The notes beneath the pieces are model-generated. The model was given only the letters and a program-made list of their open reading frames with translations. It was not told where the DNA came from and searched no databases. Position numbers and translations under genes: made by a program. Positions 5,710-26,477 of a stretch of DNA of 26,996 nucleotides are shown piece by piece. Origin of the DNA: a virus; the IMG/VR virus record IMGVR_UViG_3300032236_000857, positions 1 to 26,996 of that record; one strand, written 5' to 3'. Positions within the stretch are counted from its first letter, which is position 1. Each line of letters begins with the position of its first letter.

Positions 5710-5799
5710 TTATGCAAAAGTCCCTGTACCGATCGTTGCATCGTCTGCTGGGTCAGTGGTGGTACAGGTAGAGAATCCCAGACGTATGGTGACTATACA
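5710..5799 (-). pseudogene. Possible 3' remnant of a gene cut by the homing endonuclease insertion
   Basis: Between the endonuclease stop and the next gene there is a stop-free frame that ends in TAA at 5710-5712, just before the ribosome site of the 237-aa gene. It reads CIVTIRLGFSTCTTTDPADD then ATIGTGTFA, which looks like ordinary protein sequence, but there is no ATG, GTG or TTG start after its upstream stop at 5800. I infer a C-terminal remnant of an older ORF. It could also be chance, since the frame is only about 29 codons. Confidence 0.3.
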
Positions 5800-5819
5800 T
5801 CATTTTGGAGGGAACGCAA
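5792..5819 (-). promoter_or_regulatory. Candidate sigma70 promoter for the 237-aa structural gene
   Basis: On the minus strand TTGCGT (5814-5819) and TATAGT (5792-5797) are 16 bases apart. The -10 matches 5 of 6 consensus bases and overlaps the stop codon of the endonuclease gene; the -35 is weak (3 of 6). It would give a leader of about 90 bases containing an 8-bp inverted repeat (CCTGTACC at 5723-5730 with GGTACAGG at 5761-5768). Confidence 0.4.
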
Positions 5820-6542
5820 GGGCTTCTTTTTTCGCGCTTCTAGCATTTTGGCTTTCCAAATGGGGTCCGCCCAAAGCGCTTTTGCTGCCGCAGCTTTTGC
5901 TGCTTTGACTTCTGCGCGGTTAGCAATTTCTTGGTTGTTAGCTGTTTGTTTAGCGGCGTATTCTGGATCAGCCCATTGTGCTTTTGCTTGCGCACTTGTT
6001 TTGGCTTTAGACGCTTTTGTATTGCGCCCGCGCTTGATACCTTCTTCACGTTTGCTGCGTGTTGTAGGGTCTGTCCATGTTACCGCGCTGTTCTCCGCCT
6101 TGAGTGCGCGTGCCTCGGGCGTGCCTTGTGCTGCCTTTTGTGCTGCGACGACTTTGGCTCGGTACTCTGGGCGTTGCCATTTATCTAAGGACTCCTCCCT
6201 CAAATGTTGTTTTTCAGCTTTAGATCGCACAGACCCACTCGCACCTTCTCCTCCATCTGTGAGGTTAAACAAAGTCCCTGTTTTTAAGTTTCGGCGACCG
6301 TACAGTGCAATCAGCTCAACTTCTTTAGCAAACGCTTCTTCCTCAGACTCTGTTTCAAACACGCGCTCGCATGTTGCTACAAGGCTTCGTTGCTTCAAAT
6401 GCGAAATGAAGTCTTGGAATGGTTTGTTGTGGGACCCTCTGGACCAATGGGAAATGTCCCTGTCGCCAGTACCCTTACCAACATACACGGGTTGGTCTTT
6501 TTTTAACGGGCGTGGGTCGCGGTACACATACACATAAAACAT
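5793..6542 (-). CDS. GIY-YIG homing endonuclease
   Basis: The 249-aa product has an N-terminal GIY-YIG-type nuclease domain: FYVYVYRD at residues 2-9, PVYVGKGTGDRD at 19-29 (YVG takes the YIG place, with R28 as the expected catalytic arginine), a glutamate-rich helix with EVELIALYGRR (74-84) and LFNLTDGGEGASG (91-103). The C-terminal half has repeated short DNA-binding modules: TWTDPTTRSKREEGIK, AQWADPEYAAKQ and ALWADPIWKAKM, resembling NUMOD3-type repeats. It would cut an allele lacking the insertion and be copied by repair. It is free-standing between the capsid gene and a structural gene, with AAGGAG upstream and its own promoter. Confidence 0.88.
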   Translation of the reverse strand: MFYVYVYRDPRPLKKDQPVYVGKGTGDRDISHWSRGSHNKPFQDFISHLKQRSLVATCERVFETESEEEAFAKEVELIALYGRRNLKTGTLFNLTDGGEGASGSVRSKAEKQHLREESLDKWQRPEYRAKVVAAQKAAQGTPEARALKAENSAVTWTDPTTRSKREEGIKRGRNTKASKAKTSAQAKAQWADPEYAAKQTANNQEIANRAEVKAAKAAAAKALWADPIWKAKMLEARKKKPLRSLQNDV

Positions 6543-6567
6543 AAAAGCTCCTTTGGTTGATACCCCA

Positions 6568-6596
6568 ACTATACACCAATGGATGGCGATTTACAA
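6568..6596 (-). promoter_or_regulatory. Candidate sigma70 promoter for the homing endonuclease
   Basis: On the minus strand TTGTAA (6591-6596) and TATAGT (6568-6573) are exactly 17 bases apart; matches are 4 of 6 and 5 of 6. It lies downstream of the capsid terminator and 26 bases before the endonuclease ATG, so the endonuclease can be transcribed independently of the late operon. Confidence 0.6.
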
Positions 6597-6652
6597 ATAA
6601 TTTTCTAAATACTTTTCGAAAAATAGTTTTGATACAGGTAATGTGCTGCGCC

Positions 6653-6686
6653 AAAAAAAAAAAGGGCCCCGAAGGGCCCTTTTTTT
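6653..6686 (-). terminator. Bidirectional Rho-independent terminator after the major capsid gene
   Basis: On the minus strand seven A, GGGCCC-TTCG-GGGCCC and eleven T follow the capsid stop (6704). The stem can extend through the A/T flanks, and the plus strand also has A's before and seven T's after, so it can work both ways. It is a textbook strong terminator placed right after the most highly expressed virion gene. Confidence 0.9.
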
Positions 6687-6703
6687 GGTACTTTGGTTTC
6701 TTT

Positions 6704-14487: not shown

Positions 14488-15073
14488 TGTCTATGGTAGT
14501 TGGTGAGCGCTCACTAACATCGGTTACATTGGCGTCGATGACGCCCATGAACTTGGCCAGCTTGTCTTTGATCTTCTTGTCGATCTCGGCGTCGGGCAAC
14601 TCGGTCTTCTTGACCTCGATGCGTTCGGTGAACAGTCCCACCTCCGTGACCTTGCCCAGCATGTCAAGCGCCTTCAAGCGGATGCGTGCGTCGGGGTGAT
14701 TGGTCTCTTCCAAGATTTTGGCCACGGCCATGCCGCGCAACTCTTTGGCCATCTCCACGAACTCCCAGTCGTAGGCGGACAGCATTGTGACTAGATGGCG
14801 TACAGCCTCTGGCGTCTTGAGTTGGGTGAGTTGGGTTTTGGCTTCTGCTGCCGGCGCGGTACCGGCCAGCACACTGAACACTTTACGGGCGGCGTTGGCG
14901 TCGGCTTCTTTGAGCGTGGCGTTGTCGTCCACGATGCCTAGGCGTTCGAGCCACTCGGTTGTCTTGACTTGTGCGTTGAGCGTTTCATCCGGCTCTGCCC
15001 TATCCAAAGGCATGGTGCCCCGCGCCGCGTGCGCAGCCACAGGTGGGATGAAGTCAATCAGGTGTTCTAGCAT
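14459..15073 (-). CDS. terS: Probable terminase small subunit
   Basis: I start this at the ATG at 15073, which has AAGGAC 5 bases upstream; the longer frame begins with a GTG at 15115 without a ribosome site. The 204-aa product (MLEHLIDFIPPVAAHAARGT) is helical. Its C-terminal part, IRLKALDMLGKVTEVGLFTE followed by RIEVKKTELPDAEID, matches the LGK...LFTERIE pattern I associate with phage small terminases, the DNA-recognition partner of TerL. Adjacent and overlapping to the large subunit gene, which supports the call. Confidence 0.75.
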   Translation of the reverse strand: MLEHLIDFIPPVAAHAARGTMPLDRAEPDETLNAQVKTTEWLERLGIVDDNATLKEADANAARKVFSVLAGTAPAAEAKTQLTQLKTPEAVRHLVTMLSAYDWEFVEMAKELRGMAVAKILEETNHPDARIRLKALDMLGKVTEVGLFTERIEVKKTELPDAEIDKKIKDKLAKFMGVIDANVTDVSERSPTTIDNETQRPESD

Positions 15074-15140
15074 TTGGTCCTTGCGGGTTGCATTCCCGTT
15101 GGCGCAAGTGTACACTCACTTTTGCAGTGGCGCAATCCAT
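15054..15140 (-). CDS. Possible 28-aa leader ORF overlapping the terminase start
   Basis: An ATG at 15140 has AGGAG with a 7-base spacer and opens a 28-codon frame (MDCATAKVSVHLRQRECNPQ...) that ends in TGA at 15054-15056, 20 bases into the small terminase gene and in another frame. It might be a leader peptide that couples translation to the terminase. It may equally be chance, as nothing else supports it. Confidence 0.3.
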   Translation of the reverse strand: MDCATAKVSVHLRQRECNPQGPNARTPD

Positions 15141-15173
15141 TGCTTGTCTCCTAGTTGGGGTAAAACCCTTGAC

Positions 15174-15203
15174 GCCCCCGGTAGAAATATCGGGGGCTTT
15201 TTT
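15174..15203 (+). terminator. Rho-independent terminator on the plus strand
   Basis: GCCCCCG-GTAGAAATAT-CGGGGGC followed by TTTTTT forms a perfect 7-bp GC stem with a U tract. It is oriented against the late operon, between tRNA-Tyr and the terminase genes; on the minus strand the hairpin has no T tract, so late transcription should pass. Confidence 0.75.
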
Positions 15204-15217
15204 CTTGGAGAGGTTGT

Positions 15218-15302
15218 TGGTGGGGATGGCAGGAGTCGAACCTACTAAACCGAAGTAACAGATTTACAGTCTGCCGCGCCTCACCATCTGCGCCGCATCC
15301 CC
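15218..15302 (-). tRNA. tRNA-Tyr (GUA)
   Basis: On the minus strand a full cloverleaf folds: acceptor GGGGATG/CATCCCC, D arm GCGC...GCGC, anticodon stem GCAGA/TCTGT with loop CTGTAAA giving anticodon GUA, a 12-base variable arm (TACTTCGGTTTA) as in bacterial class II tRNA-Tyr, and T arm GTAGG-TTCGACT-CCTGC. Discriminator A73 and an encoded CCA (15218-15220) are present. G1-C72 and A73 agree with bacterial tyrosine identity. Confidence 0.95.
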
Positions 15303-15329
15303 GTTGCAGGGATGCTCAGTATCGAAATT

Positions 15330-15404
15330 TGGTCTGTGCGGCTGGATTCGAACCAGCGACCCCTCGTTTCCAAAACGAGAACGCTACCACTGCGCTACGC
15401 ACAG
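15330..15404 (-). tRNA. tRNA-Pro (UGG)
   Basis: On the minus strand: acceptor CTGTGCG/CGCACAG, D arm GCGC-AGTGGTA-GCGT, anticodon stem CTCGT/ACGAG with loop TTTGGAA (anticodon UGG), variable GGGTC, T arm GCTGG-TTCGAAT-CCAGC, discriminator A and an encoded CCA. C1-G72, A73, G35 and G36 match bacterial proline identity. Base 37 is A rather than the usual G. Two tRNAs lie 27 bases apart and probably form one transcript with the terminase genes. Confidence 0.93.
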
Positions 15405-15733
15405 AGATCTTGGGTTCCGGTTGGATTGGGGTTTTCATGATGTTGCGGATTGTAAACTTATTTTGGCGTGTTGGATACTTAAAAGTTGTTGGTGGCTTGA
15501 ATCCATCTCAAGCTCGTCCCAGTTAAGGGTGAGATATACATTCACCAACACGACTGAGGACTGGATGTATCTCAACGACTGCCGTTTGCAAACTAAGGGC
15601 ATCACCCCTTCGGTGTCGCAGGCAATCCTCATGCGTCTTGGTTGTTGGTGTCTGAGATTTGCACCCAGTTGCCTACCCTTGTCAGGTTGTGCTTCGCTAG
15701 AGCACCCCCACCAACAGATGTAGTGTACACCGT
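15405..15733. other. Intergenic region upstream of the tRNAs, no convincing gene
   Basis: No ORF here has a ribosome site. Two short minus frames touch as ATGA at 15629-15632 (one ending ...NWVQISDTNNQDA, the next 65 aa from 15632 to 15435), but both lack a ribosome site and resemble no family. There is an imperfect inverted repeat, GAGATATACAT near 15531 and ATGTATCTC near 15565, so part of this stretch may fold as RNA. I see no further tRNA. Confidence 0.5.
15449..15477 (-). promoter_or_regulatory. Candidate promoter of the tRNA/late transcript
   Basis: On the minus strand TATCCA (15472-15477) and TACAAT (15449-15454) are 17 bases apart. The -10 matches 5 of 6, the -35 only 3 of 6. The start of transcription would fall near 15442, about 38 bases before the 5' end of tRNA-Pro. 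Confidence 0.4.
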
Positions 15734-15763
15734 TTGACAGGAGTTACTTGGATTTTTTATAAA
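15734..15763 (+). promoter_or_regulatory. Strong sigma70-type early promoter
   Basis: A perfect -35 TTGACA (15734-15739), an 18-base spacer and -10 TATAAA (15758-15763, 5 of 6) point rightward into the early block. It is the best promoter match in the window and lies where rightward transcription must begin. Confidence 0.8.
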
Positions 15764-15838
15764 AATTTTGGGGGTAGGGTTATTAGACAAAAAGTTATAA
15801 AAATCTACAAAGGGGTTACGGAACAGTGTTCAGTGCGT

Positions 15839-15896
15839 CATGGTCGGCATGGTCAAAAAGGGGGTTGTGGGGGTACGGTGGGGTTTGGCTACTGGG
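15839..15896 (+). other. G-rich leader segment with tandem CATGGTC
   Basis: CATGGTCGG and CATGGTCAA are adjacent 9-mers (15839-15856). They are followed by G runs of 5, 5, 4 and 3 at 15860-15896 on the non-template strand, separated by loops of 4, 6 and 10 bases, close to a G-quadruplex pattern. A 38-codon basic frame (ATG 15840 to TGA 15956) crosses it without a ribosome site. This is the transcribed leader between the early promoter and the first gene. Confidence 0.5.
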
Positions 15897-15991
15897 AAAC
15901 GGCGCGGCGGCGCGGCACGGCAAACAGGGGTTCCAGATAATAGAGTTAGGCAATGAATAGTTCAAAGCCACAAACCCGAAAGGTATACAAC

Positions 15992-16396
15992 ATGACTACT
16001 CTCAACACTCTCATCTCCACTCTGCTCAAAACAGATGACAAGCAACAACTCACCGTGAATGAAATTGCAAAGCAAGCCGCGCTCATCACGTTTGACGAAT
16101 ACCGCGCCATTGTCGTGGCCGCTGTAGCCAAGCACTACAGCGTGCAACCGCATGAGTCCAAGCAAGGCGGCAAACTCACGTTCGCAAAGGACACCGCGCC
16201 CGAGCAAAAAATGTCACGCTTACTCAAGTTGCACCCCGAACGCGCTCAAGGCAAAGCACCAACCAAGGCCAACAAGGTAGCCGCGCCCAAGGCGTTAGTG
16301 TCGAGCGTGACCAAAGAAGTTATCGCGGCAGGCTTGACCAAGGCCGAATTCAACGCCTTTATCGTGGCGCTGAAGGCTTCGGTGTCATTTGCTTGA
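15992..16396 (+). CDS. First early-block ORF, unknown function (134 aa)
   Basis: I start at the ATG at 15992, which has GAAAGG and an 8-base spacer; the same AAAGGTA site precedes the next two genes, which supports the choice over the ATG at 15953. The product begins MTTLNTLISTLLKTDDKQQL with an LTVNEIAKQAALITFDEYRA helical segment, then a Lys/Ala-rich linker (QGKAPTKANKVAAPKALVSS) and a helical end (VIAAGLTKAEFNAFIVALKA). The two-helical-domain layout might be a nucleic acid or protein binder. No family recognised. Followed directly by palindrome copy 1. Confidence 0.75.
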   Translation: MTTLNTLISTLLKTDDKQQLTVNEIAKQAALITFDEYRAIVVAAVAKHYSVQPHESKQGGKLTFAKDTAPEQKMSRLLKLHPERAQGKAPTKANKVAAPKALVSSVTKEVIAAGLTKAEFNAFIVALKASVSFA

Positions 16397-16399
16397 TTG

Positions 16400-16416
16400 G
16401 GGGTCACGCTGACCCC
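16400..16416. repeat. Intergenic palindrome GGGGTCA-cgc-TGACCCC, copy 1
   Basis: A perfect 7-bp inverted repeat with a 3-base centre begins 3 bases after the stop of the 134-aa gene (16396). As RNA it is a stable hairpin without a U tract; as DNA it is a symmetric site. One of five related copies. Confidence 0.9.
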
Positions 16417-16425
16417 GAAAACGTG

Positions 16426-16453
16426 GCGGCGCGGGGATGTGAGGCCGCGCCGC
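16426..16453. repeat. GC hairpin after palindrome copy 1
   Basis: GCGGCGCGG (16426-16434) and CCGCGCCGC (16445-16453) form a perfect 9-bp stem with a 10-base loop. No T tract follows, so it is not a standard terminator; it could protect the 3' end of the upstream message. The motif GCCGCGCCGC recurs after copy 3. Confidence 0.75.
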
Positions 16454-16486
16454 TGTTCCAAAACGTGTCAAGTTCAAAGGTAAACC

Positions 16487-16681
16487 ATGCACCACTGCAC
16501 AAAATGCGGCGATGACGTGCGCCCTCAACGCTGGGCGTTGGGCTTCAAACTCTGCCTATCCTGCGGCGAAACCCACGCGCAACAACGCCGCCACACTGTT
16601 GTTCCCCTGAACAAATCAAACTACATCATGGTGACTGACCGTGCCATGCTCTCTCAACTCAACCCCAAACGTACAACCTGA
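16487..16681 (+). CDS. Zinc-ribbon miniprotein (64 aa)
   Basis: The product begins MHHCTKCGDDVRPQRWALGF and has a second pair CLSCGE, giving CxxC at residues 4-7 and 23-26, a compact four-cysteine zinc site. The C-terminal HTVVPLNKSNYIMVTDRAML is a pattern I remember from small conserved phage ORFs. AAAGGTA lies upstream. Function is unknown; DNA, RNA or protein binding is the usual guess for such ribbons. Confidence 0.8.
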   Translation: MHHCTKCGDDVRPQRWALGFKLCLSCGETHAQQRRHTVVPLNKSNYIMVTDRAMLSQLNPKRTT

Positions 16682-16691
16682 AAGGTACATC

Positions 16692-16922
16692 ATGCGTAAC
16701 ACCACACAACCCACAATCGAACACATGGGCACGTTCACCTTCCCTATCCACGGCGAATACAACGTCATGTACTACTACCCCAAAGGCAAAGCACAACCCG
16801 ACTTCTTTCTTGTCAACGTCTACCGCAAGAACAGTTCACGCGGCCTATGCTTGAGTGGTGAAGCCGCCTTCGAAGCATGGCTAGAGCAGATGCAAGCTCC
16901 CATTCAAATGAAGCTGTGCTAA
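16692..16922 (+). CDS. Small phage protein, unknown function (76 aa)
   Basis: I start at the ATG at 16692, which has GAAAGG and a 7-base spacer; the longer frame to 16641 overlaps the previous gene without a site. The product reads MRNTTQPTIEHMGTFTFPIH then GEYNVMYYYPKGKAQPDFFL, a beta-type sequence, and ends in a short helix (EAAFEAWLEQMQ). I recognise no family. It is followed by palindrome copy 2. Confidence 0.75.
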   Translation: MRNTTQPTIEHMGTFTFPIHGEYNVMYYYPKGKAQPDFFLVNVYRKNSSRGLCLSGEAAFEAWLEQMQAPIQMKLC

Positions 16923-16925
16923 TTG

Positions 16926-16942
16926 GGGGTCAACCTGACCCC
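16926..16942. repeat. Intergenic palindrome GGGGTCA-acc-TGACCCC, copy 2
   Basis: A perfect 7-bp inverted repeat 3 bases after the stop at 16922. Its flank AATTG and following CGAG resemble copy 1. It separates the small ORF from the AT-rich non-coding segment. Confidence 0.9.
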
Positions 16943-17390
16943 GAGAGTTGCGAATGGGATAAATTGGGTTAAGAATACTTTTTTGTTCGTCTCCCTAATT
17001 TATCCTGTTCGGACACGCATCGGACACGCGCCACCCCGCATGAAACCTAGCGGTATCCAAGATGTCTAATATATATATATACTTTTACTCTTTTATATAT
17101 ATAGGTCTTAATTTATATAGGTATAGGGATAAATGTATGAGTACTCCCTTACTTTGCTTTGGTTATTATTCTCCTTCTTATCCTTCTTACACTTTTTTTT
17201 AAGTAAGGGTGTGTGTATATTCCCGCAATTTTGAGGGTAGTTTTTCGGTGCTTTGCGCGGCCACCCCGCATGAACACTGGGTTTTTTAGTGGCGAGACTA
17301 GGCCATTACAGAATAAATTAAGGATACTAAATACCAAAGTGTTACACAGCGATTGTAATTAATCCAACCAGTGCCTAGAAAACCAAACCC
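16943..17390. other. Candidate replication origin or regulatory region, non-coding
   Basis: About 450 bases with no supported gene. It contains a tandem CGGACACGC pair near 17010-17029, a direct repeat GCCACCCCGCATGAA at 17030-17044 and 17260-17274, an AT-rich core with (TA) runs at 17066-17138, a pyrimidine-rich plus strand at 17146-17200, and a 9-bp inverted repeat CCCTTACTT (17146-17154) / AAGTAAGGG (17201-17209). Direct repeats beside an easily melted AT core are usual in phage origins. No replication initiator gene is recognised next to it, so origin function is a hypothesis. Confidence 0.4.
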
Positions 17391-17399
17391 TGCTACACT
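17391..17399 (+). promoter_or_regulatory. Candidate extended -10 promoter
   Basis: TGC directly precedes TACACT, giving an extended -10 (TGnTACACT) 30 bases before the ATG at 17429. The -35 region is not recognisable. It would let the 248-aa gene be transcribed separately from the upstream ORFs. Confidence 0.4.
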
Positions 17400-17428
17400 A
17401 CGCATCTTTTCAACTAACAGGATTAATC

Positions 17429-18175
17429 ATGGAATCCATTGACTACAGGCAAACACCGACCCAAATAAAAGCCGCGCTAAAACGCAAGGTAAGAGACGGC
17501 ACGATAGACAACGAAGAAGCTGCCACCACATTGGAAGGCTGGGAAAAGCTCAAGCGCAAGATCAAATCCGACAACGCACGCAAGCAAGCCAACGCCCGAT
17601 TGTGGAAAGAACTACTCACGCCCTTGCGTGCCGAAATAAAAAACGTACACGCTTTGTTGCGCTACTCGGGCGGCGAAGCACGACAGTTCGCATTGGAGTT
17701 ACTGCTCGAAGCGCTGACTCGGGTGCTAGGCAAGATGGAGTTAGACGCAAGAGCCGCCGCCTTGTCGCCCATGCAGAAGGCCAAGGCTAAGGGCGTACCC
17801 AACAAAGGCTTACACTGGTCGGATTGGGTAGGGCGCAATATGCGCGAGTCCGTAGAAGCCGCGTTCGATGCAATACCCAAGGCAGGGCGCAAGGTGAAGA
17901 TGCCATTCGAGCGCGTACTACCCGTGGATATAGCCGCGAGACAACGCCAACGCTTGGCCGACCGCACGAATAAAGAACTGTTAGTAGCCAAGCTCAACTA
18001 CGAAGCGTCAAAGAACACACTCGGGGAACGCTTGCCCTTTGAGGAACAGAAGACCCAACGCCTGCGCGAGAAGGTGCAGAAGATCAAGCAAGCCCTAACC
18101 TACATCGAGAACCTTGGGACTAAAGACGTTGTGCCGATGACGTGGCATGGCTTCTTTGAAGGTGAAGACGATTAA
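17429..18175 (+). CDS. Basic helical protein, unknown function (248 aa)
   Basis: The product starts MESIDYRQTPTQIKAALKRK and is rich in Lys, Arg, Glu and Ala throughout, with long predicted helices (EEAATTLEGWEKLKRKIKSD, EARQFALELLLEALTRVLGK) and a central KGVPNKGLHWSDWVGRNMRE motif. It has no signal peptide or membrane segment. AGGA lies 8 bases upstream. Sitting just after the AT-rich non-coding segment, it could act there as a DNA-binding or replication factor, but no domain is recognised, so this is context only. Confidence 0.75.
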   Translation: MESIDYRQTPTQIKAALKRKVRDGTIDNEEAATTLEGWEKLKRKIKSDNARKQANARLWKELLTPLRAEIKNVHALLRYSGGEARQFALELLLEALTRVLGKMELDARAAALSPMQKAKAKGVPNKGLHWSDWVGRNMRESVEAAFDAIPKAGRKVKMPFERVLPVDIAARQRQRLADRTNKELLVAKLNYEASKNTLGERLPFEEQKTQRLREKVQKIKQALTYIENLGTKDVVPMTWHGFFEGEDD

Positions 18176-18208
18176 CGGGTGTCAATTTTTAGGGGTCACG
18201 TTGACCCC
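18176..18208. repeat. Post-stop module with palindrome copy 3
   Basis: Directly after the TAA stop comes CGGGTGTCAATTTTTA and then GGGGTCA-cgt-TGACCCC (18192-18208). The same leading CGGGTGTCA follows the stops of two other genes. TGACCCC can pair with the upstream GGGGTCA, or CCCCGA (18205-18210) with TCGGGG just after it (18212-18217), so two folds compete. Confidence 0.88.
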
Positions 18209-18214
18209 GAATCG

Positions 18215-18246
18215 GGGAGCGCATGGTTTAGCCGCGCCGCGCTCCC
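18215..18246. repeat. GC hairpin after palindrome copy 3
   Basis: GGGAGCGC (18215-18222) pairs with GCGCTCCC (18239-18246), 8 bp with a 16-base loop containing GCCGCGCC. It resembles the second hairpin after copy 1 in position but not in detailed sequence. No T tract follows. Confidence 0.7.
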
Positions 18247-18277
18247 TGCCTGTACTAGCTGGCCGAAAGGGAATTGT

Positions 18278-18436
18278 ATGAATGAGAAACCGCCTATTGA
18301 GTACCGCGTGTACACGCAAGACGGTGAGTTGTTGCTGTTGACTAGCAAATACCGCATAGCCCACGACTACGCGCTTGGATATAAAACACGAACAGGCGAG
18401 AGCCTAGTTGTAAAAACTAAAAGAAAGGAGAACTGA
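18278..18436 (+). CDS. Small protein (52 aa), unknown function
   Basis: The ATG at 18278 has AAAGGGA upstream; the longer frame (to 18179) reads through the repeat module and is not supported. The product, MNEKPPIEYRVYTQDGELLL then LTSKYRIAHDYALGYKTRTG, looks like a small alpha-beta fold with a basic tail. I do not recognise it. It starts a run of short ORFs that share ribosome sites of the AAAGGAG type. Confidence 0.7.
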   Translation: MNEKPPIEYRVYTQDGELLLLTSKYRIAHDYALGYKTRTGESLVVKTKRKEN

Positions 18437-18437
18437 A

Positions 18438-18632
18438 ATGAAAACAAGTGAACTGACAAACGCGAAGCTGTGCCTTACTTGGAGTGACGGCAGAACAGAA
18501 TCCCTTTGGAGCAACTTGCCCGAGTATCTGCGCGAGGAGATAAGTGCTTACCTGCATGAGTTGGAAGAACACATGGCAGAAGTGGGCGAGGAATACAACT
18601 TCACAACAGACACAGGAGAACTGAAATGCTAG
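18438..18632 (+). CDS. Small acidic protein (64 aa), unknown function
   Basis: Product MKTSELTNAKLCLTWSDGRT then SLWSNLPEYLREEISAYLHE is acidic, with one long helix. AAAGGAG is 7 bases upstream. Its end overlaps the next gene by 7 bases, indicating coupling. No family recognised. Confidence 0.7.
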   Translation: MKTSELTNAKLCLTWSDGRTESLWSNLPEYLREEISAYLHELEEHMAEVGEEYNFTTDTGELKC

Positions 18633-18886
18633 GAATAAAAAGCAAGGTATACATCCTTTATTTTTGGGATGTGAACCAGTACCCGACCTTCCGTTCGGCT
18701 TCATGCAACGGAGCACTGCGCGAGTTCTACATTGACCCCGAGGATGCTATCAACTTGACCGAAGGGGCAGGCTATGAAGCTGTACGCGCCATTGAAGCTG
18801 GCGCACGACTGGTGGATGGTAAGGCGCAGTTGTGCTTTGTACTCACCACCGAATTTGGCAACGTAATAGACGCATTAAAGGTATGA
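18626..18886 (+). CDS. Small protein (86 aa), unknown function
   Basis: The product reads MLGIKSKVYILYFWDVNQYP, then an ALREFYIDPEDAINLTEGAG segment and LCFVLTTEFGNVIDALKV. AGGAG lies upstream inside the previous gene. The strand-helix-strand look suggests a small alpha-beta domain. No function assigned. Confidence 0.7.
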   Translation: MLGIKSKVYILYFWDVNQYPTFRSASCNGALREFYIDPEDAINLTEGAGYEAVRAIEAGARLVDGKAQLCFVLTTEFGNVIDALKV

Positions 18887-18888
18887 AC

Positions 18889-19221
18889 ATGGAAAACTTC
18901 TTTGAGAAATTTCTCGAGCGCCAACTGCGCCGCCTCATCAAGTGCATCACCAAGCTAGAGGCCGAAGGCTTGACTACCACTAGGTACACAGACGCAGGTA
19001 TCAACCCTAACTCGGGCAATGTGTATGTGTATGACGAAGGATGGAGCGCGTGTATCTTCATTGGTAGCGAAGGCTCAGAACCTACGTGGTGCTACTCATG
19101 CCCCGAGTGTGGAGAAGAACATATGTTCGACACGCATAAAGAAGCGCAGGAGTACGTGCAGACCTACGACCACCAATGCGAATCGTGTAGCCCAAAAGAA
19201 AGAGAGGAGATCACAGAGTGA
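18889..19221 (+). CDS. Small zinc-binding protein (110 aa), unknown function
   Basis: The start at 18889 has AAAGG with a 7-base spacer; the ATG at 18883 is only one base from that site. The product begins MENFFEKFLERQLRRLIKCI and carries WCYSCPECGEEHMF with a second pair HQCESC near the C-terminus, so CxxC...CxxC could hold zinc. The middle (YTDAGINPNSGNVYVYDEGW) is beta-like. Directly followed by the post-stop repeat module. Function unknown. Confidence 0.75.
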   Translation: MENFFEKFLERQLRRLIKCITKLEAEGLTTTRYTDAGINPNSGNVYVYDEGWSACIFIGSEGSEPTWCYSCPECGEEHMFDTHKEAQEYVQTYDHQCESCSPKEREEITE

Positions 19222-19269
19222 CGGGTGTCAGTCCCTTACTGACGTGTTTTTAGGGGTCAAGCTGACCCC
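19222..19269. repeat. Post-stop module with palindrome copy 4
   Basis: CGGGTGTCA follows the TGA stop, then an inner hairpin GTCAGT-CCCTT-ACTGAC (19227-19243) with GTGTTTTT after it, then GGGGTCA-agc-TGACCCC (19253-19269). The inner hairpin plus T run might be a weak intrinsic terminator just before the amidoligase gene. Other copies lack that inner hairpin. Confidence 0.85.
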
Positions 19270-19299
19270 GAATGTTTTTCATCAACTAGGAGAATTCAA

Positions 19300-21147
19300 A
19301 TGAAACTTTATTTCGCAACATTTCAAACTCAAGACAGCGACAACAAACCAAGCATGAGATCGCACACGGTGCTTATCGCAGAGCAAGTCGAGGTCAGATC
19401 AGGCGGTGTGCGCCGCAAAATCTATGCAGGTTTGACGGTTAAACATAGCGCGTTAAAAATACTTCCCTCACTGTTCACAAATCGAGCCAAACGATACGAC
19501 ATCGATGACTTGTATGTAATGCACGTAAATTCAGAAGACAATCCTGAAACATACATTGGGAACCATTACGGTTACCAAGCCACCCTCAACTTGCAAGTCA
19601 CCGAACTGACGCCCATTCAAATGCGTTGGCTTAGTGACCCCGAGCAAGGTTTGGGAGTCAAGATCAAGTTGTTTGATCGTATGTATATGAACACCACTGG
19701 CCCTGTGGACACATTCATAGCCCGTATCACGCGGCAGATGAAAAAGCGCCTCGACAAACCACGCCCATATGCAATGTACAGAGGCACCATGAGCTACTCT
19801 GCGGCGGACTACAAGCACAGACAAGCTGTCACAGCCGCGTGTCACAACGCGATCAAGCAAGCCGTTGCAGACGATGACGTATCTGTGTTTGACGACTGGA
19901 TACACGAGCACTACGAAAACATAAATGTGCAGGGCGGACTATCCAATTGGTTTGACCGTGTTAAAGACTTCTTAGACGATAAGGGTTTGTACACCGACCT
20001 GCAAGTCTGTGACTGCGGCCACATGGAGTACACAGGCGAGACGCATGATGTGCGTGACGATACGTGGTGCGATGCGTGCTTCCGTGATGATGCTGTATTC
20101 GTAGAGGATAGAAACGAGTATTGGTCGCGTGACGATGCGTACTGGAGCGACAACCACGATGCGTATTATTCCTATGACCGTGACTCTGACGAGGCTGACG
20201 AAGACGAAGCTGATGGCGACCCTAGCGCACTCATGGACTACTCGACCAACGTGCTCGACCACCTGAACCGAGACACATCGTTCACGCCAACACCTTACAG
20301 CGACTTGCTCATGGGCATCGAGTTGGAGATTGGCGTAGGGGATGACAACTACAAGCGCGATGCGGTATCCAAGATTCGCTCTGCCTTGGGTGAGGACTAT
20401 GTGGTGTGTAAGTATGACGGCTCCTTGCCTGACGATGGCCTAGAGATCGTGACTGCACCGCGCCGACTGGCTCATCACATCAAGCAGTTCAGGGACTGGG
20501 TTGTGCCTCAAGGGTTTCGGGCATGGGATGCCAAGCGTTGCGGTATGCACATCCACATTGACTCGCGTGGCTTCTCCAAGCTGACGCTCGGTAAGTTTTT
20601 CATGTTCATCAACGCCGAGGCAAACGCAGACTTTGTGCGCCAGATCGCAGGTCGTCATCCAAACCGTGACAACCAAGCGCGTGAGTATTGTGCCGCCGAA
20701 CATCAAGACATCCTCACCAACCCGAGCAAGGCGTTGAAGGGTAAGTCAGATCAACGCTACCGCATGATTAACACAAACAACCTGACGAGTCGTGAGTGCA
20801 ACCGACTAGGTCTCAAGGACACCTACAACCGCCGTGGCTACGACACTATCGAGCTTCGTATCTTCAGGGCTTCGCTCAAGAAAGAACGCTTGCTTGCACA
20901 GATCGAGTGGACTCATGCGGTCGTGATGTTCTGTCGCACAGCATCGTGGCGTGACTTGAACGGTGAAGCGTTTGTTGCATGGCTCAAGACTACCAACAAT
21001 GCGTACTCGAACCTTGCCAAATGGTATGGCTTGAGCAAGCGCGTCAAGGAAGCAACAGCCAAAACCTGCGAAGACGTAACCCCTGCGCCCGAGCCTGTGA
21101 CTACCGAGTCGCGTGATGTGCAACGTGCCCAACGGGGGTCGCTTTGA
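19300..21147 (+). CDS. Amidoligase-like (ATP-grasp-unrelated COOH-NH2 ligase) enzyme
   Basis: The 615-aa product has an N-terminal region of unknown fold, a four-cysteine zinc ribbon (CDCG at 237-240 and CDAC at 257-260), an acidic linker (near 295-307) and a C-terminal catalytic-type domain. That domain shows GIELEI (339-344), KYDGSLPDDGLEIVTAPR (371-388), CGMHIHID (414-421), a NTNN segment (491-494) and TIELRIFRAS (516-525). These are the hallmarks of the Amidoligase_2 family, glutamine synthetase-fold enzymes thought to form amide bonds between carboxylates and amines using ATP. TAGGAGA precedes the start. The next full gene is a glutamine amidotransferase, the partner known for such enzymes. 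Substrate is unknown. Confidence 0.82.
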   Translation: MKLYFATFQTQDSDNKPSMRSHTVLIAEQVEVRSGGVRRKIYAGLTVKHSALKILPSLFTNRAKRYDIDDLYVMHVNSEDNPETYIGNHYGYQATLNLQVTELTPIQMRWLSDPEQGLGVKIKLFDRMYMNTTGPVDTFIARITRQMKKRLDKPRPYAMYRGTMSYSAADYKHRQAVTAACHNAIKQAVADDDVSVFDDWIHEHYENINVQGGLSNWFDRVKDFLDDKGLYTDLQVCDCGHMEYTGETHDVRDDTWCDACFRDDAVFVEDRNEYWSRDDAYWSDNHDAYYSYDRDSDEADEDEADGDPSALMDYSTNVLDHLNRDTSFTPTPYSDLLMGIELEIGVGDDNYKRDAVSKIRSALGEDYVVCKYDGSLPDDGLEIVTAPRRLAHHIKQFRDWVVPQGFRAWDAKRCGMHIHIDSRGFSKLTLGKFFMFINAEANADFVRQIAGRHPNRDNQAREYCAAEHQDILTNPSKALKGKSDQRYRMINTNNLTSRECNRLGLKDTYNRRGYDTIELRIFRASLKKERLLAQIEWTHAVVMFCRTASWRDLNGEAFVAWLKTTNNAYSNLAKWYGLSKRVKEATAKTCEDVTPAPEPVTTESRDVQRAQRGSL

Positions 21148-23117: not shown

Positions 23118-24329
23118 ATGAAACAAGTAATTCACGATGAGGGTGCACGCCCAATCAAAATTTGGACTGACGAAGTTGAGGCCAGCGCCTTGACCCAACT
23201 CAAGAACCTATCGCGCCTGCCATTCATTGCATCAAACGGGGTGTCGTGTATGCCCGATGTTCATGCAGGGATTGGCTCGACCGTAGGCACTGTGATCGCT
23301 ACCGAGAAGGCCGTCATCCCCGCCGCTGTGGGTGTTGACATTGGCTGTGGCATGAACGCGGTGCGGCTGTCATTGAAGGCCAGCGACCTGCCTGACAACT
23401 TGAAACCCCTGCGCGATGAGATCGAGAAGCGCGTGCCGCTGGGCAAGGGCGGTGGGCATGACCATATGCGCGAGGTGGAGTTGGAAGGTTTGAACAGTCA
23501 GCACAACCTTGGCAAACTTTGGAAAACAATCATCAAGCCGTTGTACAAAGGCGACTTGGCGAAGTTCGAAGAGAAGGCCGCAAGCCAACTCGGTACGCTG
23601 GGCAGTGGCAACCACTTCATTGAGATTTGCATTGACGAGAACCAAGATGTGTGGATCATGCTGCACTCAGGCTCTCGCGGCATTGGCAACATGATTGGTA
23701 CGCACTACATCGGGCTGGCCAAGCGCGACATGGAGAAGTTTTTTGTGTCCCTGCCTGACGACAACCTTGCGTACTTCCCCGAAGACACCGAGAACTTTGA
23801 TGACTACATGGCCGCTGTGGGCTGGGCGCAGAACTACGCGCTTGAGAACCGCAAGATCATGATGTCTGAAGTTTTGATGGCCATGCGCCTGATGATTCCC
23901 GTTGAGTTTCACATTACACAGGAGGCAATCAACTGCCACCACAACTATGTCGAAAAAGAAAATCACTTTGGACGAAATATGTGGGTTACTCGCAAGGGAG
24001 CCATTCGCGCACGAGAAGGCGATCTGGGAATTATTCCGGGCAGCATGGGACAACGCAGCTACATCGTCCGAGGAAAGGGAGACCTTCAGTCTTACTGCTC
24101 TTGCTCACATGGCGCAGGTCGCAGCATGTCGCGTGCCGAAGCGAAACGCCGGTTCAGCCTCAGTGATTTGGTGGAGCAAACAATGGGAGTTGAATGCCGC
24201 AAAGACGAAGGAGTCATTGACGAAATCCCAGCCAGCTACAAAGACATTGACCAAGTGATGGCCAATCAAACCGATCTCGTTGAGGTCGTTCATCAACTCA
24301 AGCAGGTACTCTGCGTGAAAGGAAATTGA
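23118..24329 (+). CDS. rtcB: RtcB-family RNA ligase
   Basis: The 403-aa product shows all RtcB signature sites: PDVHAG (46-51), VGVDIGCGM (71-79) with D74 and C77, GTLGSGNHFIE (159-169) with N165 and H166, MLHSGSRGIG (181-190) with H183, NCHHNYV (272-278) with the metal histidine, GIIPGSMG (304-311) and SHGAGR (330-335) with H331 as the GMP-accepting nucleophile. Length fits the shorter RtcB2-like group. RtcB joins RNA 3'-phosphate or 2',3'-cyclic phosphate ends to 5'-OH ends with GTP and Mn2+. It starts one base after the upstream stop and is coupled to it. Likely role here: repair of nuclease-cut tRNAs, including those the phage encodes. Confidence 0.93.
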   Translation: MKQVIHDEGARPIKIWTDEVEASALTQLKNLSRLPFIASNGVSCMPDVHAGIGSTVGTVIATEKAVIPAAVGVDIGCGMNAVRLSLKASDLPDNLKPLRDEIEKRVPLGKGGGHDHMREVELEGLNSQHNLGKLWKTIIKPLYKGDLAKFEEKAASQLGTLGSGNHFIEICIDENQDVWIMLHSGSRGIGNMIGTHYIGLAKRDMEKFFVSLPDDNLAYFPEDTENFDDYMAAVGWAQNYALENRKIMMSEVLMAMRLMIPVEFHITQEAINCHHNYVEKENHFGRNMWVTRKGAIRAREGDLGIIPGSMGQRSYIVRGKGDLQSYCSCSHGAGRSMSRAEAKRRFSLSDLVEQTMGVECRKDEGVIDEIPASYKDIDQVMANQTDLVEVVHQLKQVLCVKGN

Positions 24330-24330
24330 A

Positions 24331-24540
24331 ATGGAAAAAGAAATGGAAAAAGAAACAGGTGGGCCAGCGTTTCCCGCAAATGACTCCGATGGCTATTGGG
24401 CTGAGGGCATGACCTTGCGTGATTACTTTGCGGCTAGGGCGTTGAGGTTGTATAGCGACGACACGCTAGAACGGATGGCGCAAAACGCGAAGAAAGTGCA
24501 CCAACAAGCAGACGCAATGCTGAAAGCGAGGGAACAATGA
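24331..24540 (+). CDS. Conserved phage miniprotein (69 aa)
   Basis: The product starts MEKEMEKETGGPAFPANDSD and has the GMTLRDYFAARAL segment then ADAMLKARE end that I recognise from many phage ORFs of unknown function. AAAGGAAA-type site precedes the ATG. The stop overlaps the next start as ATGA. No enzyme motif is visible. Confidence 0.8.
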   Translation: MEKEMEKETGGPAFPANDSDGYWAEGMTLRDYFAARALRLYSDDTLERMAQNAKKVHQQADAMLKAREQ

Positions 24541-24725
24541 TTGAAGACAAAAACCCAACCACACGGTGCTACCCACGCACCCTACAAGAAGCCTTCCCCA
24601 ACTCCATCGACCAAGCTGGGTGGTTCTATCCACCCGAAGAAAACAACGGCTGGCGCAACGTGCTCATGGGCTACGCGGCGCTGGTGATGTGGATTGGCTT
24701 GGCGTATTACTTTTCAAAGAACTGA
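24537..24725 (+). CDS. Small single-pass membrane miniprotein (62 aa)
   Basis: Product MIEDKNPTTRCYPRTLQEAF continues to a hydrophobic C-terminal stretch (VLMGYAALVMWIGLAYYF, residues 43-60) followed by SKN. The CYPRTLQEAFP motif is one I remember from phage ORFs. It is ATGA-coupled to the previous gene. A tail-anchored membrane protein of unknown function. Confidence 0.75.
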   Translation: MIEDKNPTTRCYPRTLQEAFPNSIDQAGWFYPPEENNGWRNVLMGYAALVMWIGLAYYFSKN

Positions 24726-24732
24726 GGACAAC

Positions 24733-25014
24733 ATGAAACAACCACACAAACACGCAGAGCTAATCAAAGCATGGGCTGATGGTGCTGTGATTCAGCATTT
24801 GGCGATGAATGGGTTATGGTATGACGTTGCCGAACCGTCATGGGTTATTGATTACTCTTATCGAATCAAACCCAAGGATGTTGTTTTGTCTGGCTGGATA
24901 GAAAGAACAGGAGTTGGTAGCCAATTTTTTGCATTCAATCATCCTAATGACAATATCAAACTCACCTTTGACGGTGAGACAGGCAAACTCAAATCAGCAG
25001 AGGTGTTGCCGTGA
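24733..25014 (+). CDS. Conserved phage protein of the HKHAELIKAWADGA type (93 aa)
   Basis: I start at 24733 (GAGGA upstream) instead of 24694, which lacks a site. The product has MKQPHKHAELIKAWADGAVI, WYDVAEPSWVIDYSYRIKPK, a pattern of a phage protein family known to me without a function. The last part is beta-like. The stop overlaps the GTG start of the next gene. Confidence 0.78.
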   Translation: MKQPHKHAELIKAWADGAVIQHLAMNGLWYDVAEPSWVIDYSYRIKPKDVVLSGWIERTGVGSQFFAFNHPNDNIKLTFDGETGKLKSAEVLP

Positions 25015-25343
25015 ACGAAAACAAAAAAGTCTACGCGCTACTGGGGCGGTACGTGGAGTTCAACAAAGTGGATACGGTGTGGGTAGCAGTCGTCCCCGAT
25101 CGCACCATGATCGCAATGGAAGAATACCAAACGCCGTTGTTGTCGCAAGACATTGACTGCCTCTTGTTGACTGTGCGTACTAGCAACTGTTTGCGTGCCG
25201 AGAAAATCAACACGGTCAGGCAGTTACTCGATATGCGCGAACGCGACTTGTTGGTCATCCCAAACTTTGGCCGCAGGTGTTTAGATGATGTGAAGCAAGC
25301 CCTCGCCGAACATGATTTTTATTTAAAAGGAGATAAGAAATGA
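25011..25343 (+). CDS. Stand-alone RNA polymerase alpha-CTD-like protein
   Basis: Starts at GTG within GTGA, overlapping the previous stop. Residues 47-106 match the alpha subunit C-terminal domain: DIDCLLLTVRTSNCLRAEKI, INTVRQLLDMRERDLLVIPN and NFGRRCLDDVKQALAEHDFY. Compared with E. coli alpha, R56, N59, C60 and G87 align with DNA-contacting R265, N268, C269 and G296, and R89 with K298. The N-terminal 46 residues are different. Such a protein could compete for UP elements or activators and redirect host transcription. The domain call is strong, the role is inference. Confidence 0.85.
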   Translation: MNENKKVYALLGRYVEFNKVDTVWVAVVPDRTMIAMEEYQTPLLSQDIDCLLLTVRTSNCLRAEKINTVRQLLDMRERDLLVIPNFGRRCLDDVKQALAEHDFYLKGDKK

Positions 25344-26234: not shown

Positions 26235-26250
26235 GGAGGCACCGCTGTGA
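26158..26250 (+). CDS. 30-aa proline-rich ORF overlapping its neighbour
   Basis: An ATG at 26158 with AAGGAG and a 7-base spacer opens a 30-codon frame (MWPFPPFPNPKDEGNKTPKF...) that lies in another frame of the 86-aa ORF and ends in TGA overlapping the GTG start of the next gene. The strong ribosome site and exact fit with the next start support it. Function unknown. Confidence 0.6.
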   Translation: MWPFPPFPNPKDEGNKTPKFNPDNHEEAPL

Positions 26251-26477
26251 CCAATGAACAGTATGAGGAACTGACCTGCCCTCAACCAACTGTTGTGGTG
26301 CGCTCACTGGCTAACGACCCAAACTACACCAAGTGCCCACGGTGTTGGCACTACACGCACGAAGGTACGCACAACCATGACGGTCTGTGCGACCGTTGCA
26401 TCAACGTCTTAAGAGAAGACTACCCCAACGACCCGCGCACAATCGCTGCGCTAAAGAAAAGACAGGAGTACAAATGA
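26247..26477 (+). CDS. Zinc-finger miniprotein (76 aa), IleRS-finger-like
   Basis: Starts at GTG (26247) with GAGGAGG and a 7-base spacer. The product contains KCPRCWHYTHEGTHNHDGLC then DRCINVL, giving CPRCWHY...CDRC, which resembles the zinc finger at the C-terminus of isoleucyl-tRNA synthetase. It is only the finger, not the enzyme, so an RNA-binding or regulatory role is possible but unproved. The end overlaps the next gene as ATGA. Confidence 0.75.
   Translation: MTNEQYEELTCPQPTVVVRSLANDPNYTKCPRCWHYTHEGTHNHDGLCDRCINVLREDYPNDPRTIAALKKRQEYK

Follow-up and report, generated by a model that had tools for sequence, protein, structure and literature searches.

A phage-encoded RNA polymerase alpha-CTD separated from the alpha subunit, a putative DNA-binding regulator of transcription

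The viral DNA analysed here (26,996 nucleotides, referred to below as the window) encodes a C-terminal domain of the RNA polymerase alpha subunit (alpha-CTD) that is not joined to an alpha N-terminal domain (alpha-NTD). The gene (25011-25343, plus strand) was identified from the open reading frame lists and the sequence, and codes for a protein of 110 amino acids. We propose, with a probability of about 0.5 and on the basis of sequence comparison, that the product is a small DNA-binding transcription regulator, which the phage would have built from a captured bacterial alpha-CTD.

Residues 38-100 match the Pfam family RNA_pol_A_CTD (PF03118) almost completely (profile positions 5-67 of 67), with a score of 71.1 bits against a curated cut-off of 23.8 (E 6.3e-20). 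A phmmer search of the PDB matched 48 distinct sequences, all of which are RNA polymerase alpha subunits or fragments. The Pfam score and the matches to solved alpha-CTDs place the domain match beyond chance. Full-length rpoA (equivalog) models gave scores far under their cut-offs for the 110-residue protein, with only the CTD matching, and therefore the protein has the domain without being the subunit; the alpha-NTD, which serves core polymerase assembly, is absent. An AlphaFold model, for which 42 sequences were aligned, has a pLDDT of around 90 over the domain core, from residue 51 on. With this model as query, Foldseek matched solved alpha-CTDs, for example 8y5t (rmsd 0.6), 1lb2, 3n97 and 9zum; the rmsd is 0.6-0.9 for several alpha-CTD structures, and 3n97 and 9zum are structures on UP or A/T-rich DNA. 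As modelled, the domain (residues 38-104, 25122-25322, plus strand) has the alpha-CTD fold.

The first 37 residues (25011-25121, plus strand) are unrelated to RpoA, have no Pfam match and are modelled at a pLDDT of only about 45-50. The model is poor over residues 1-39, with a weak beta hairpin at residues 16-27 that is of low confidence. The sequence-only reading had described a stand-alone alpha-CTD-like protein with a non-RpoA N-terminus of 46 residues. The open reading frame, the profile and PDB matches and the predicted structure bear out the stand-alone domain, and the N-terminus is indeed not RpoA-like, although it is shorter than claimed (about 37-40 residues). Outside the CTD, the window protein has no Pfam match to sigma region 4 or a helix-turn-helix (HTH) domain, and at E 0.01 it matches no PHROG family.

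To compare the surfaces of the domain with those of the E. coli protein, we used E. coli numbering by alignment (offset 209). The first part of the DNA-contact face, R56-T-S-N59-C60 (25176-25190, plus strand), corresponds to R265/N268/C269, and the second part, G87-R-R89-C90-L-D-D93 (25269-25289, plus strand), to G296/K298/S299/E302, in agreement with the earlier assignment of the motifs RTSNC and NFGRRC to R265/N268/C269 and G296/K298. R265, N268, C269 and G296 are identical, and K298R, S299C and E302D are conservative replacements, the latter two absent from our bacterial RpoA set. DNA binding in E. coli depends on R265 and N268 (PMC11434276). Because the DNA face is kept, binding to the minor groove of A/T-rich DNA is predicted.

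The surface that faces sigma is altered, a point the sequence-only reading did not raise. In E. coli, D259 and E261 contact R603 of sigma70 (PMC5511352). Both acids are lost in the window protein, which has C50-L51-L52 (25158-25166, plus strand) at the positions of D259-L260-E261. Positions 285-288 read R-E-R-D. The 285-288 region is a known activator surface. With the sigma patch and the alpha-NTD gone, the protein would not function like a normal polymerase-bound alpha-CTD. Replacement of the host alpha-CTD in its contacts with activators, which had been suggested from the sequence, or with sigma is disfavoured by these residues and by the relaxation of both surfaces across phage copies. The same evidence makes it very unlikely that the protein is a mimic of the host alpha-CTD which titrates activators or sigma: its overall similarity to alpha-CTD would suit such a decoy, but phage copies show relaxation in just those surfaces that a decoy would offer, and not in the DNA face.

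Relatives are encoded in at least 219 viral contigs, as counted in the second of two scans with alpha-CTD alignments. After reading the open frames around the matches that were kept, we aligned a non-redundant set of 76 proteins of 82-443 amino acids, including the window protein, its close relative L002 and two proteins from isolate phages; PF03118 matches all 76. Among isolate phages, the domain is encoded by Bacillus phage vB_BmeM-Goe8 and by Ruegeria phage vB_RpoS-V16. The R265 equivalent is present in every copy, N268 in 63 of 76 (nine others have His), and G296 in 72; position 298 is Lys or Arg in 71, position 299 Ser or Cys in 73, and position 302 Glu or Asp in 74 of the 76. Since the scan patterns contained some of the DNA-face residues, we recounted in copies that those patterns do not match. 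R265 was found in 46/46 and N268 in 33/46 of these; among copies unselected by the second-half patterns, G296 was present in 16/19, and Lys or Arg at 298, Ser or Cys at 299 and E302 in 19/19 each. The check for homologues that lack the contact arginine, called for by the sequence-only reading, thus returned none, whether or not the copies had been selected on it. An alpha-CTD outside RpoA is encoded by phages, its DNA-contact surface is kept across the sampled homologues, and binding to UP-like DNA is the natural prediction from these sequences.

The acids that face sigma are less well kept. An acidic residue occupies position 259 in 42/72 phage copies versus 63/63 bacterial RpoA sequences (Fisher p 2e-10), and position 261 in 46/72 versus 61/63 (Fisher p 1e-6); these p-values overstate independence, because the phage copies are mutually related and the bacterial set consists for the most part of Beta- and Gammaproteobacteria, besides some Actinobacteria. 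Neither acid is present in 15 of 73 copies, the family of the window protein among them. Relaxation is strong at positions 259, 261, 286 and 304, whereas the DNA face shows no significant difference between phage and cellular proteins.

Conservation of the R265 equivalent could have another cause. It is the most conserved residue and also the residue that Alt and ModA of phage T4 ADP-ribosylate (PMC2988021), and the protein might therefore be a decoy that draws modifying or cleaving enzymes, for example the ADP-ribosyltransferases of rival phages, away from the host alpha-CTD. We consider this highly improbable: DNA binding explains R265 equally well, N268, G296 and E302 are conserved along with it as suits contact with DNA, and no rival enzyme is known for the host of this phage. 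Conservation of the DNA face alone does not separate transcription from other DNA-binding roles, and the domains with which relatives of the window protein are combined bear on that distinction.

Sigma70_r4 is found in 11/76 proteins of the aligned set, a Cro/C1-type HTH in 3/76, and a helical-hairpin domain, here termed DYFAA, in about 15/76. The DYFAA model was built from free-standing 'MTLRDYFAA...ADAMLKARE' proteins, and hhalign, run between the profiles of fused and free-standing domains, gave a probability of 96.8%. In the predicted model of one DYFAA fusion, two long helices precede the alpha-CTD. The DYFAA model does not match the window protein; in the window, this domain is a separate gene (24331-24540). 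Six relatives (L087, L089, L090, L091, L094, L097; about 205-256 amino acids) apparently combine sigma-70 region 4 and alpha-CTD in one chain, and in L081, L093 and L095 a Cro/C1-type HTH is joined to the alpha-CTD. In L069 (5848-6309), the alpha-CTD is inserted in a DYFAA-type domain and flanked by its two halves. In L100 (5947-6372) and L101 (5935-6372), about 20 inserted residues separate the R265 helix of an alpha-CTD-like domain from its second half. Many DYFAA/alpha-CTD fusions (L117, L119, L125, L137, L146, L147, L156) have His or another residue at the N268 equivalent, with R265 kept.

The partner modules of these relatives, as recognised in their sequences, point to transcription, which proteins of this family probably control in infected cells. 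It is rather unlikely that the domain is a generic helix-hairpin-helix DNA-binding module for replication, packaging or repair: HHH_5 also matches 11 of the homologues and the window gene lies among small genes of unknown function, as such a module might, but of the partner modules whose type is recognised, most belong to transcription (sigma region 4, Cro/C1 HTH). Taken together, the kept DNA face, the lost sigma patch and alpha-NTD, and the partner modules of the relatives favour a regulator acting in trans.

We envisage that the captured alpha-CTD would bind in the minor groove of A/T-rich, UP-like DNA, the usual mode of an alpha-CTD, and that the short N-terminus might supply pairing or a partner contact, which is a guess given the poor model of this part. 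Occupancy of such DNA near promoters would then shift the use of host RNA polymerase during infection, in one of two ways. In the first, a phage partner would be tethered and brought to phage promoters; in the second, the protein would compete with host alpha-CTD at UP-dependent promoters, for example those of rRNA genes. Tethering is favoured over plain competition, and the two together make up the probability given above. A single alpha-CTD binds DNA weakly, which counts against the protein being a regulator.

Competition with host alpha-CTD is plausible. In its pure form, abundant free alpha-CTD would occupy UP elements and lower rRNA and other UP-dependent transcription, shutting off the host without recruiting anything. 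We hold this to be a minority possibility. A monomeric alpha-CTD would be a weak binder next to an RNA polymerase with two tethered copies, and further modules, DNA-binding or sigma-like, for which pure competition has no need, are present in many relatives. Conversely, a kept DNA face with a lost sigma face is what is expected of a competitor that does not help the polymerase. Removal of the host alpha-CTD by Rac of phage LUZ19 strongly lowers transcription (PMC7552054); with R265 modified by T4 ModA as well (PMC2988021), this surface is a proven phage target.

The window, a viral record, has its terminase, portal and capsid genes on the minus strand. On the plus strand, small overlapping genes follow one another rightward, and the alpha-CTD gene is one of them; its GTG start overlaps the stop of the preceding gene (GTGA). 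Seven orthologues of the same length (94-95% identity) were found, all in viral contigs. Residues 42-110 are identical in 8/8 family members, and every substitution falls at residue 41 or below, most of them within the N-terminal 37 residues; for a dN/dS comparison, the orthologues amount to three distinct sequences with few changes. The gene for a 69-residue DYFAA-type protein of the 'MTLRDYFAA...ADAMLKARE' kind (24331-24540, plus strand; phrog_2201, PHROG E 2.1e-13) is upstream of the alpha-CTD gene in 8/8 members of this phage group, and other neighbours vary. Also present in 8/8 members, between the DYFAA and alpha-CTD genes, is a gene for a 62-residue protein with a probable membrane helix, as judged by eye (24537-24725, plus strand). 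Directly before the alpha-CTD gene lies that of a 93-residue 'HAELIKAWADG' phage protein (24733-25014, plus strand; phrog_34112, E 2.4e-6), which was not found at that position in the other seven members. PHROG gives no function for the DYFAA domain of phrog_2201, which is a recurrent fusion partner of alpha-CTD in phages.

In a specific form of tethering, the protein would be attached to a phage or host factor, either by its own N-terminus or by way of the DYFAA protein encoded nearby, and the alpha-CTD would deliver that factor to promoters. The fusion of alpha-CTD to DYFAA-type domains in relatives and the free DYFAA gene upstream throughout the phage group speak for such an adaptor. On the other hand, free DYFAA genes are also found close to copies with a related N-terminal domain of their own (L035, L039), so the DYFAA neighbourhood may mean little. 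We regard the adaptor as a minority possibility too, on a par with pure competition.

Several other genes of the window are recorded here. An RtcB RNA ligase gene (23118-24329, Pfam E 6e-129) is present in the window and in L001, and was not found at this place in L002-L007. Genes for tRNA-Tyr and tRNA-Pro lie at 15218-15404. The segment 19300-22344 holds an Amidoligase_2 gene (Pfam E 1.8e-6) and, after it, a gene with an N-terminus that resembles class II glutamine amidotransferases by eye and has no Pfam match. Adjoining the capsid gene is a gene that by eye resembles GIY-YIG homing endonucleases (5793-6542), apparently swapped for a different gene in the related record G001. Downstream of the alpha-CTD gene, a small zinc-finger protein is encoded (26247-26477; zf-FPG_IleRS, Pfam E 2.5e-6).

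Searches with controls that worked found no gene for an rpoB-type polymerase and none for sigma region 4, either in the window or in two relatives 44-55 kb long, all three records being possible fragments. The phage therefore likely uses the host polymerase. A search for a T7-type polymerase gave no match, and none in the control genomes either.

A candidate target of the protein is an UP-element-like A/T tract on the minus strand (15752-15771), with one mismatch to the consensus. It lies upstream of the leftward tRNA-terminase arm, where G001 is also A/T-rich. Over the window, 25 overlapping matches to UP-like sites form 9 clusters, versus a mean of 3.7 in shuffled sequences (2 of 200 shuffles were as high), an excess which ordinary A/T-rich intergenic DNA may explain. 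A scan of 15000-19400 for Sigma70-type promoters showed no excess. The A/T-rich gap beside the GIY-YIG-like gene (6543-6703) holds 13 overlapping UP-like matches.

We also searched other collections for the protein. With the window protein as tblastn query, the annotated matches in INPHARED came from complete rpoA genes of hosts, the records being bacterial or contaminated; all other matches, in unannotated records, are taken to be host contamination. Inspected matches in PLSDB proved to be whole alpha subunits of about 330-340 amino acids, one of the records (Nonomuraea) having no annotation there. A scan of genome contigs with the window protein yielded no relative, and with an alpha-CTD alignment it yielded full-length rpoA, except for one copy cut by a contig end. 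Of 300 genomes of Burkholderiales, chosen as the order of the Polynucleobacter record that was used as centre, 287 have a match, one each, and among the matches listed all are in frames of more than 320 amino acids, that is, full-length RpoA.

The domain, the predicted fold and the DNA-contact residues are common to the window protein and the CTD of bacterial RpoA (PF03118). Unlike RpoA, the window protein has no alpha-NTD or linker, has Cys and Leu in place of D259 and E261, and is encoded by a phage. Other phage proteins annotated as alpha-CTD are likewise too short for RpoA, several having 111-139 amino acids; examples are UniProt A0A6J5MNY7 and A0A6J5L490 (uncultured Caudovirales phage), proteins of Rhodococcus phage Finch and Mycobacterium phage Mithril, and Goe8_c00050 of Bacillus phage vB_BmeM-Goe8. 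They share low identity with the window protein and, where seen, have different N-terminal parts. The phage fusions with sigma region 4 contain the same alpha-CTD and differ from the window protein in that module. Since several phage proteins in BFVD already bear the annotation 'RNA polymerase, alpha subunit, C-terminal', proteins of this kind are not new to annotation. In the open-access literature, to which our search was confined (most subscription journals lie outside it), no functional study of a phage-encoded or stand-alone alpha-CTD was found. What our analysis adds is the family-wide view, in which partners are swapped, the DNA face is retained and the sigma face is relaxed.

In a tree of alpha-CTDs, which has modest support and is based on some 60-70 columns, phage copies lie near Firmicutes, Actinobacteria and Proteobacteria, which would hint at several captures. 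We tentatively extend the proposal to the family, at odds clearly lower than those for the window protein: phages may repeatedly have captured the host alpha-CTD and made of it a separable module for promoter DNA, with the DNA face preserved and the sigma-contacting acids given up; this module would act in trans to reprogramme host RNA polymerase. If true, repeated capture of alpha-CTD would be a general strategy of transcription takeover, of which we found no description.

The alpha-CTD is where upstream DNA, many activators and bacterial RNA polymerase meet. T4 Alt and ModA, Rac of the phiKMV group and Ogr of P2 likewise exert phage control through it (PMC2988021, PMC7552054), and the ADP-ribosylation of R265 by Alt and ModA and the removal of the domain by Rac indicate that its surface is worth controlling. 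Those proteins modify, remove or bind the alpha-CTD of the host, whereas the phage studied here brings its own copy. For the broad family, A/T-rich DNA binding that depends on the R265 equivalent is predicted, with little or no contact to sigma region 4 in copies like the window protein. A free alpha-CTD of its own would give a phage another route to the takeover of transcription.
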